Origin: Actinomycetota bacterium
GTDB taxonomy: Bacteria; Actinomycetota; Acidimicrobiia; Spongiisociales; UBA5794
Assembly (NCBI GenBank): GCA_013151445.1
Contig: JAADIG010000137.1
Span: 1 to 64,000 of the forward strand
DNA: 64,000 bases
Reading direction: 5' to 3'
Under the pieces are notes generated by a model. That model was given only the letters and a program-made list of their open reading frames with translations, did no database searches and was not told the origin of the DNA. The translations under genes and the position numbers were made by a program. Each line of letters starts with the position of its first letter. Position 1 is the stretch's first letter. Of this stretch, positions 5,261-18,795 are shown piece after piece.

Positions 5261-6829
5261 TTACGACTCGTACCCAGCACGCAGAAGTCCCAGCACGAGT
5301 CCTTCGACAACCGCCTGCCATGACGCATTGATGATGTTTTGGTGTACACCAACCGTGCTCCACCGGTCTTCGCCGGTCGCATGGGTGGTGAGTACGCGCA
5401 CCCGGGCGCTGGTCCCTTCGGAGGAGTCGAGATTACGAACCCGATAGTCGACGAGGCGTATGTCGAGGATTTCCGGGTAGGTATCTTCCAGCGCGGCGCG
5501 TAGCGCACGGTCGAGTGCACTCACCGGGCCGTCGCCCTCGCGGGTCATGACGATGCGTTTGCCATGGACCGTGAGTTTCACCGTCGCTTCCGATTCGACT
5601 CCGGCGCCATTGGATACAAACACCCGGTAGGACTCAAGTTCGAAGAAGGGTTGGTTCCAGCCCTGCACGTCGCGAAGCAGCAACTCGAAACTTCCGTCGG
5701 CCGCCTCAAACTGGTACCCGTGGTGTTCTAGTTCCTTCACTCGGTTGACAACGACCTGTGCGTCGGCGTCGGTCAGGGTCATCCCCCGGGCCTTCCCCTT
5801 GGCTACGACCGTTGAACGTCCAGCCATCTCGGACACGACCACCCGGGTGGTGTTGCCAACGGTCGCTGGCGGGAGGTGCTCGTAGGCGTCGGGTCTCCGG
5901 GCCAGGGCAGATGTGTGGAGCCCCGCCTTGTGTGTGAACGCCGACGCCCCCACGTACGGTAGATGGGGGTTGAGGGTGATGTTGATGATCTCCGCGAGAT
6001 GGTGCGATACGGACGTCAACCTGCTGATCTGCTCATCGGTCACCACCCTGGTGTCCATTTTGAGCTGGAGGTTCGGGATGATTGAGCAAAGGTCGGCGTT
6101 GCCGGTCCGCTCGCCGTACCCATTGATACAGCCCTGCACCTGGGTGACCCCCGAACGGACCGCAGTGAGACTGTTCGCAACGGCCATCCCCGAGTCGTTG
6201 TGGAAGTGGGCGCCAAACACGGCGTCTCCAAGCGCCTCGCCAACCTCGCCGATGACACGCTCAACTTCGTGTGAGAGCCAGCCACCATTGGTGTCGCACA
6301 TGACCAGACGTTCCGCACCTGCGGCGTGGGCCTCCCGAAGCACTGTGAGCGCAAAGTCCGGGTTGTCGCGATAGCCATCAAAGAAGTGCTCGGCGTCGAA
6401 GAAGACACGACGCCCCTTGGATCGGAGATAGGCGACTGAGTCGGCGACCATGGCTACCGCTTCATCCTCGTTTACTCGTAGTGCGTGCTCGACGTGGTAA
6501 CTCCACGATTTGCCCACAAGGCACACCACATCCGTTTCCGCATCGAGGAGCGCCTGGAGGACGGCATCATCTTCGGCCCTGACGTTGGCGTGGCGAGTCG
6601 ACCCGAAAGCGACAAGTGTTGCATTGGTGAGTTCCAACTCTGTCTTCGCACGTTGGAAGAACTCGTCTTCCTTCGGGTTTGCCCCGGGCCAGCCGCCCTC
6701 GATGTAGTGCACCCCGAGACCATCGAGGAGGTGGGCGATCTTCAGTTTGTCCTGCACGGTGAGCGAGATGCCCTCTTGTTGGATTCCGTCTCGCAAGGTG
6801 GTGTCGTAGATTTCTATCTCGGGGGTCAT
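5261..6829 (-). CDS. cimA: Citramalate synthase
   Basis: MTPEIEIYDTTLRDGIQQEGISLTVQDKLKIAHLLDGLGVHYIEGGWPGANPKEDEFF..., LeuA-like C-terminal dimer domain; RBS GGAG before the ATG. Confidence 0.93.
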   Translation of the reverse strand: MTPEIEIYDTTLRDGIQQEGISLTVQDKLKIAHLLDGLGVHYIEGGWPGANPKEDEFFQRAKTELELTNATLVAFGSTRHANVRAEDDAVLQALLDAETDVVCLVGKSWSYHVEHALRVNEDEAVAMVADSVAYLRSKGRRVFFDAEHFFDGYRDNPDFALTVLREAHAAGAERLVMCDTNGGWLSHEVERVIGEVGEALGDAVFGAHFHNDSGMAVANSLTAVRSGVTQVQGCINGYGERTGNADLCSIIPNLQLKMDTRVVTDEQISRLTSVSHHLAEIINITLNPHLPYVGASAFTHKAGLHTSALARRPDAYEHLPPATVGNTTRVVVSEMAGRSTVVAKGKARGMTLTDADAQVVVNRVKELEHHGYQFEAADGSFELLLRDVQGWNQPFFELESYRVFVSNGAGVESEATVKLTVHGKRIVMTREGDGPVSALDRALRAALEDTYPEILDIRLVDYRVRNLDSSEGTSARVRVLTTHATGEDRWSTVGVHQNIINASWQAVVEGLVLGLLRAGYES

Positions 6830-6861
6830 GGGGTTCTCCGTTGGTGATCGAGGTGAGGCAT

Positions 6862-6888
6862 AAGAAAACCCTCCGCCGGGCGGAGGGT
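6862..6888 (-). terminator. Intrinsic terminator in the cimA leader (attenuator)
   Basis: Minus strand: ACCCTCCGC-CCG-GCGGAGGGT-TTTCTTA between a short Thr/Ile-rich ORF and cimA. Confidence 0.8.
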
Positions 6889-6923
6889 GATGGGCGCACA
6901 CGCGGATGTTGAGGCGTGTACGC

Positions 6924-6968
6924 CTACGTAATAATCTCGATGCGGGTTGTGCTCGTCCAGTTCGTCAT
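6924..6968 (-). CDS. Thr/Ile-rich leader peptide MTNWTSTTRIEIIT of cimA
   Basis: ATG ACG AAC TGG ACG AGC ACA ACC CGC ATC GAG ATT ATT ACG TAG: 5 Thr and 3 Ile in 14 aa, followed by hairpin plus terminator, then cimA. Confidence 0.75.
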   Translation of the reverse strand: MTNWTSTTRIEIIT

Positions 6969-7004
6969 GACAGCCAGTATGCAGGAACCTTCGCTCAGCG
7001 TCAA
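6969..7004 (-). promoter_or_regulatory. Promoter of the cimA leader, probably leaderless
   Basis: Minus strand: TTGACG (6999-7004) - 17 bp - CATACT (6976-6981) - 7 bp - ATG. Confidence 0.65.
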
Positions 7005-18066: not shown

Positions 18067-18585
18067 ATGGCTGACGAGCAAACTGACGAGATGCAGGTAT
18101 CCAAGGGAGGTTGGATCGCTCTCGGCGCCTTTGCCGGGATCGCGGCAACCGTTGCGGTCGGGCTTATCGCCCTTGCGGTAGTCGTAGGTACGTCTGATAG
18201 TTCCGATGCTGTTGCATCATCTCCGACCTCAACCGTTGCTGTCACCACGACGGTGGTTACCTCATCGGAACCGGTTGCGTCGGGTGGAGGTACTGCCCTC
18301 GATGGGGACGCCGGCAACGGTGAGGCACTTTACGGTGCGTCGTGTGCCGCGTGCCACGCCGCGGGCGCTGTCGGTGTCCCGGGTCTCGGGAAACCACTCG
18401 TCGGTTCGGACTTCATCGACACGCTCGCCGATTCAGAGTTGGTTGCGTTCATCTCCGTCGGTCGTGATCCCTCGGACCCGGCGAATACGACCGGTGTTGG
18501 TATGCCGCCAAAAGGTGGCAACCCGTCGTTGAACGATGCAGACCTGGCGGACATCGTCGCCTACATTCGCTCCCTCAACCCGTAG
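18067..18585 (+). CDS. Membrane-anchored monoheme cytochrome c
   Basis: N-terminal TM helix; GEALYGASCAACHAAG heme motif; later Met in VGMPPKGG. Confidence 0.85.
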   Translation: MADEQTDEMQVSKGGWIALGAFAGIAATVAVGLIALAVVVGTSDSSDAVASSPTSTVAVTTTVVTSSEPVASGGGTALDGDAGNGEALYGASCAACHAAGAVGVPGLGKPLVGSDFIDTLADSELVAFISVGRDPSDPANTTGVGMPPKGGNPSLNDADLADIVAYIRSLNP

Positions 18586-18611
18586 GTTCGTACTCCACGT
18601 CGAGTAAGAAC

Positions 18612-18652
18612 GAACCCGCTCCGAGCCTCCGCTCGGAGCGGGTTCTCCTTTG
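18612..18652 (+). terminator. Intrinsic terminator of the cytochrome c gene
   Basis: GAACCCGCTCCGAGC-ctcc-GCTCGGAGCGGGTTC-TCCTTT; 15-bp perfect stem. Confidence 0.88.
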
Positions 18653-18795
18653 GGCACCGGTCACCGTCGTTGCGCCGGCCAGGATATGGCATTTACCGTG
18701 CTGAGGACGCCTCGAATATGTGTTTGAAGCCTTAAGGGCTGGAGTTCTGGGGTCGATAGACAGAACGTGGCAATCAAGCAGAAAGATTCGGTTAC

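Follow-up and report, generated by a model that had tools for sequence, protein, structure and literature searches.

In the enterobacterial thr, ilvGMEDA and trp leaders, the ORF is short and the regulatory codons lie close to its 3' end, an intrinsic terminator follows, and the antiterminator is mutually exclusive with this terminator. The thr and ilv leaders of enterobacteria respond to several amino acids.

In Actinobacteria, leaders of ilvB, leuA, cys, trp and leuS genes have been described in which parts of the attenuator are often missing (Seliverstov 2005, PMC1262725); candidate ilvB leaders followed by terminators are listed there for Corynebacterium, Mycobacterium and Streptomyces, and candidate leuS attenuators for Streptomyces (PMC1262725). 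The ilvB-II motif of Corynebacterium was described by Narunsky and co-workers (PMC10272879). In the ilvBNC leader of Corynebacterium glutamicum, transcription starts one nucleotide from the start codon and the antiterminator and terminator hairpins are adjacent; at the hairpin bases the two compete for a GCC trinucleotide, and expression rises several-fold when this site is mutated (PMC11857589).

Here we analyze a leader located upstream of cimA, the gene for citramalate synthase, in a genome of the class Acidimicrobiia, together with its relatives; we found no paper on a cimA attenuator in the open-access literature. Like the leaders of the 2005 survey, which carry runs of Ile/Val/Leu or Leu codons before a terminator and often have no recognizable antiterminator, it is an actinobacterial branched-chain leader, but that survey covers neither cimA nor the Acidimicrobiia and does not describe a uniform first hairpin (P1 below) abutting the stop codon (PMC1262725). 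The resemblance to Corynebacterium ilvBNC is closer: a short leader with branched-chain codons, a start codon next to +1 (as predicted here), adjacent hairpins and a branched-chain amino acid gene downstream (PMC10272879, PMC11857589). The two nevertheless differ, since the Corynebacterium uORF spans most of the first hairpin whereas P1 starts here at the stop codon, since the GCC is common to antiterminator and terminator there whereas P1 and P2 do not share even a 3-nt overlap here, and since the downstream gene here is cimA, with isoleucine codons only. C. glutamicum ilvBNC, with its mutational evidence, is the nearest tested precedent for side-by-side hairpins.

Organization of the cimA leader

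All the features listed in a preliminary description of the locus, namely the promoter, the leader ORF, the 11-bp helix, the terminator, and the RBS and ATG of cimA, are present in the window (the whole 64,000-nt stretch of DNA that was analyzed), as read from the sequence and, for cimA, from the match to TIGR00977 (Table 1). The transcript folds as two hairpins, P1 and P2, with a z-score of -2.78 (3 of 200 shuffles folded equally well). P1 has no T run after it and is therefore not itself a terminator. P2 and its T tract form an intrinsic terminator between the leader ORF and cimA, which covaries in relatives.

Table 1. Features of the cimA leader in the window, and the ilvB copy of the same genome
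Feature	Position	Strand	Remarks
-35 element TTGACG	7004-6999	minus	read from sequence
-10 element CATACT	6981-6976	minus	17-nt spacer after -35; leader ATG 7 nt further on
Leader peptide ORF MTNWTSTTRIEIIT + stop, 14 codons	6968-6924	minus	ATG 6968-6966, TAG 6926-6924
Putative regulatory Ile codons	6941-6930	minus	ATC 6941-6939, ATT 6935-6933, ATT 6932-6930; GAG (Glu) between the first two
P1 hairpin GGCGTACACGC...GCGTGTGCGCC	6924-6893	minus	11 bp, one G-U; first base is the last of the stop codon
P1-P2 spacer CATC	6892-6889	minus	4 nt here; 0-7 nt in relatives
P2 terminator hairpin ACCCTCCGC-CCG-GCGGAGGGT	6888-6868	minus	9 bp, CCG loop
Terminator T-rich tract TTTCTT	6867-6862	minus	read from sequence
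cimA RBS GGAG	near 6839	minus	read from sequence
cimA, citramalate synthase	5264-6829	minus	ATG at 6829; NCBIfam TIGR00977, 670 bits (cut-off 450)
ilvB copy of the element	G000:C78:21793-21882 (L153, L240)	minus	leader MSQTLNLVILR

An 11-codon ORF (MPHLDHQRRTP; window 6861-6826, minus strand) begins just past the terminator, and its terminal ATGA overlaps the start codon of cimA. The sister genome G006 shows this arrangement too, and G007 lacks it; it possibly reflects translational coupling, or chance.

To place the locus among its relatives, homologues of cimA were drawn from 50 genomes of the family and from named GTDB genomes (Acidimicrobiia and relatives), and their upstream regions yielded 57 curated leaders. 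In every one of them, a short ORF with Ile codons at its end is closed by a stop codon and followed by P1 and then by P2 and its T-rich tail. The earlier reading of the locus as an attenuator-type cimA leader is borne out by this set: the short ORF is conserved, the terminator is kept and the codons match the gene. Further copies were sought with a DNA pattern and with a covariance model, R2, which holds both hairpins and replaced a first model built on an automatic consensus (R1) that held P2 only. R2 matched in 47 of the 50 family genomes (E <= 1) and, across the class, in 236 of 296 (E <= 0.01). Because it recurs before the 57 curated cimA loci and throughout this class-wide set, the arrangement lies far beyond what chance produces.

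The promoter is conserved as well: TTGACn, a spacer of 16-17 nt and a -10 element are found in 49 of the 57 cimA leaders, the -10 element being CATACT in 40 of these 49, and an ATG or GTG lies 7-11 nt past the -10 element in 49 of the 57. Given this distance, which is only 7 nt in the window, the leader mRNA is probably leaderless and its translation probably proceeds without a Shine-Dalgarno sequence.

Isoleucine codons are conserved, threonine codons drift

The last codons of the ORF are strikingly uniform (kinship is ignored in these counts): isoleucine occupies codon -4 in 50, codon -3 in 50 and codon -2 in 52 of the 57 cimA leaders. Within this run, ATC is used 102 times, ATT 71 times and ATA 4 times; since the third positions are free to vary, it is the amino acid that is conserved and not the RNA sequence. 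The low-GC Candidatus Actinomarina leaders (L087, L096, L102) read MKKIIIII, followed by the stop codon; there (L083, L087, L096, L102) the element is very compact, with an ORF of 7-8 codons, no P1-P2 spacer, and a terminator hairpin that ends 8-16 nt 5' of cimA. In the window, the Ile run is interrupted by a Glu codon.

The preliminary description took the leader for a combined sensor of threonine and isoleucine, and the leader of the window does contain five Thr codons. Threonine is the commonest residue at codons -6 (24/57) and -1 (20/57), is found at codon -5 in 17/57 (kinship again ignored), and is commoner in cimA than in ilvB leaders (64/342 vs 20/222, p = 0.0016); moreover, the window's genome has a threonine dehydratase (IlvA) candidate above the cut-off, which would make 2-oxobutyrate from threonine, so that cimA would be one of two possible routes to this compound. 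Yet threonine is fixed at no position, as against three for isoleucine, Thr is absent near the stop codon in several leaders, and the Actinomarina leaders all lack it. The drift is visible even within the genus of the window: G006 has Asn, Ala and Ile in place of Thr codons 5, 7 and 8, which G007 does not keep either, whereas Ile codons 12 and 13 are retained in all three genomes. The isoleucine part of the earlier claim is thus upheld by the alignment and the threonine part is not; a joint sensor appears very unlikely, and the comparison of leaders supports a cimA leader that would sense isoleucine and not threonine.

The codons follow the downstream gene

Copies of the element are not restricted to cimA. 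Of the 85 family matches obtained with R2 at E <= 0.01, 39 lie before cimA; of the other 46, 44 precede ilvB, as judged from tblastn or from the first ORF, one precedes leuS and one sits at a contig end. Nearly every genome of the family has a second copy, before ilvB, and the window's genome has exactly two clear copies, before cimA and ilvB. The latter has a leader whose start lies about 30 nt past the -10 element with AAAGGA 5' of the ATG, that is, a plausible Shine-Dalgarno sequence, which the cimA leader does not have. Where leuB and ilvE-like genes precede cimA, the element heads the operon (L164, L165, L167, L168, L171). A few relatives, such as G002 (L116), have no element before cimA. 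Four weak R2 matches in the window's genome (E 1.1-8) were set aside; the one at window positions 18559-18653 (plus strand, E 1.7) resembles the 3' end of a cytochrome c-like gene with an ordinary terminator.

Among the ilvB leaders, runs such as LVLI, LVVLI and VLVL are seen: all 37 combine Leu with Val or Ile within the five final codons, and Leu and Val make up 131 of 222 residues in the last six codons, as compared to 8 of 342 in cimA leaders (Fisher p = 2e-56, kinship ignored). A third copy, found in one genus, precedes leuS (L239, L248, L249), with the leaders MKPQTRLQLM/E and MKPYTRLQLN, in which Leu occupies codons -4 and -2. The RNA frame thus stays constant while the codons vary with the gene downstream (Ile ahead of cimA, Leu/Val/Ile ahead of ilvB and Leu ahead of leuS), which is the strongest evidence for codon sensing. 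An enzyme that serves isoleucine only would be governed by Ile codons, one that serves all three amino acids by a mixture, and leucyl-tRNA synthetase by Leu codons. Each copy very probably switches its pathway on when the cognate amino acid is scarce.

Actinobacteria of other families have related elements ahead of ilvB, and one checked copy (G374, L186) precedes cimA. In such families (L187, L193, L194, L195, L200), the element and ilvB are separated by a conserved ORF of some 105 codons (MRYEFDR...VASVLWEGPGQVTV).

An alternative is modelled on TnaC, which senses tryptophan: the nascent chain could arrest at the stop codon in response to free isoleucine rather than the ribosome stalling on codons. 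A hydrophobic Ile run directly 5' of the stop codon would suit such an arrest, and the arrested termination complex would abut P1. However, codon -1 varies greatly among leaders (T, R, D, P, I, A, E), no residue 5' of the run is fixed, and the ilvB and leuS versions exchange residues to suit the gene, as codon sensing predicts. We consider nascent-chain arrest highly improbable.

P1 and P2 are both conserved as structures

Covariation was scored on alignment A1, with P1 and P2 taken as the structure, and compared to shuffles. Two-sided changes were found in 17 of the 20 base pairs (10 of 11 in P1, 7 of 9 in P2), amounting to 95 two-sided cells vs 28 +/- 4.5 in the shuffles; 87.5% of the cells pair, and at most 59% do when the partner is slid. 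All 57 cimA and all 37 ilvB leaders fold to exactly two hairpins. The final base of the stop codon is also the first of P1 in 38 of the 57 cimA leaders and in 24 of the 37 ilvB leaders, and the spacer between the hairpins measures 0-7 nt in all 94.

Two conserved, covarying hairpins could also belong to an RNA that binds a metabolite or a protein, the ORF being incidental. No Rfam family reached its gathering score in the window, though, and a lax search of the leader returned only noise; in particular, there was no match to the Rfam T-box riboswitch model. Besides, the sequence and loop of P1 change freely among lineages, and the strongest constraint falls on the ORF codons and the position of the hairpins. 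A binding RNA is thus an exceedingly unlikely explanation.

No general antiterminator pairing is found

In a classical four-segment attenuator, P1 would act as the protector or pause hairpin and, upon stalling, its 3' arm would pair with the 5' arm of P2 as the antiterminator, perhaps as a pseudoknot or only in some lineages. This is how the enterobacterial trp and his attenuators operate. Some leaders could accommodate such a switch: the 3' half of P1 can pair with the 5' arm of P2 in L014, L015, L018, L023 and L020 (-9 to -12 kcal/mol), and L049 and L054 show competition when P1 is blocked. However, over the 57 leaders, P1-P2 cross-pairing was no better than that of shuffled arms (mean z +0.05 and +0.73), P2 formation stayed near 1.0 in 47 of 49 leaders when the 5' arm of P1 was blocked in the folds, and a ribosome stalled on so short an ORF would hide nearly all of the upstream RNA. 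We regard a four-segment attenuator as unlikely here.

Outward extension of P1 and P2 in search of an overlap gave 1 nt in 1 of 57 cimA and 7 of 37 ilvB leaders, and none in the rest. We also folded the leaders with a ribosome placed at successive codons, its leading edge being assumed to lie 11 nt past the A site. The mean predicted formation of P2 was 0.95 or more at every position; P2 being predicted to form at equilibrium wherever the ribosome sits, no pairing-based switch is visible. By contrast with P2, P1 responds to the ribosome in these folds, its predicted formation being 0.98, 0.89 and 0.54 with the A site at Ile codons -4, -3 and -2, respectively, and 0.01 at the stop codon.

A pairing-based antiterminator was therefore rejected as a general feature after negative outcomes in the blocked folds, the duplex scores, the overlap test and the ribosome-position folds. 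The preliminary description had identified no antiterminator pairing, and indeed none exists in most leaders according to the first three of these analyses. The mutually exclusive helices envisaged there did not appear, the transcript giving a P1 and a P2 that neither share bases nor cross-pair. Likewise, the likeness drawn to thr and ilv leaders does not extend to the mechanism: an antiterminator sharing bases with the terminator was not found, and since P1 and P2 do not pair in most leaders, the mechanism would be unlike that of the classical thr, ilv and trp attenuators.

Discussion

The leader ORF, its codon specificity, P1, P2 and their spacing are plain from the alignments. On these grounds, cimA is very likely controlled by a ribosome-mediated transcription attenuator responsive to charged tRNA-Ile. 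More broadly, the sequences give good support to a known principle in an unusual form, i.e. an Ile-codon attenuator of cimA that would be part of a modular set in Acidimicrobiia.

As P1 formation shifts with the position of the ribosome and P1 shares no bases with P2, we propose a block by proximity. RNA polymerase would start at about 6969 and a ribosome would load at once on the near-leaderless ORF. When isoleucine is ample, the ribosome would reach the stop codon and cover the 5' arm of P1, P2 would fold, and transcription would terminate prematurely near 6862. When isoleucine is scarce, the ribosome would stall on the first Ile codons with its leading edge at the stop codon, so that P1 could fold; with a gap of only 0-7 nt between P1 and the base of P2 and with the ribosome behind P1, P2 would not be completed in the RNA exit channel and the polymerase would read through into cimA. 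In the folding model, P1 would be formed when the ribosome is stalled and masked when it is at the stop codon, which would amount to classical antiterminator logic without shared bases. That P1 blocks P2 in exactly this manner is an inference that we put forward tentatively, as a reasonable candidate short of a probable one. We are also cautious about its generalization, which is conceivable rather than probable: a class-wide modular attenuator, in which a stop-abutting P1 antiterminates by proximity alone and the amino acid that is read is set by the last codons of the mini-ORF.

The citramalate route to isoleucine thereby gains a putative regulator, none having been found described, in the majority of the genomes sampled from a large class that has been little studied. 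Since the RNA frame is constant and the codons vary with the gene, the family of elements constitutes a natural codon-swap experiment. The missing antiterminator raises a testable question, namely whether a hairpin can block a terminator merely by adjacency. If the proximity reading is true, any amino acid could be read by changing only the last codons of the mini-ORF.
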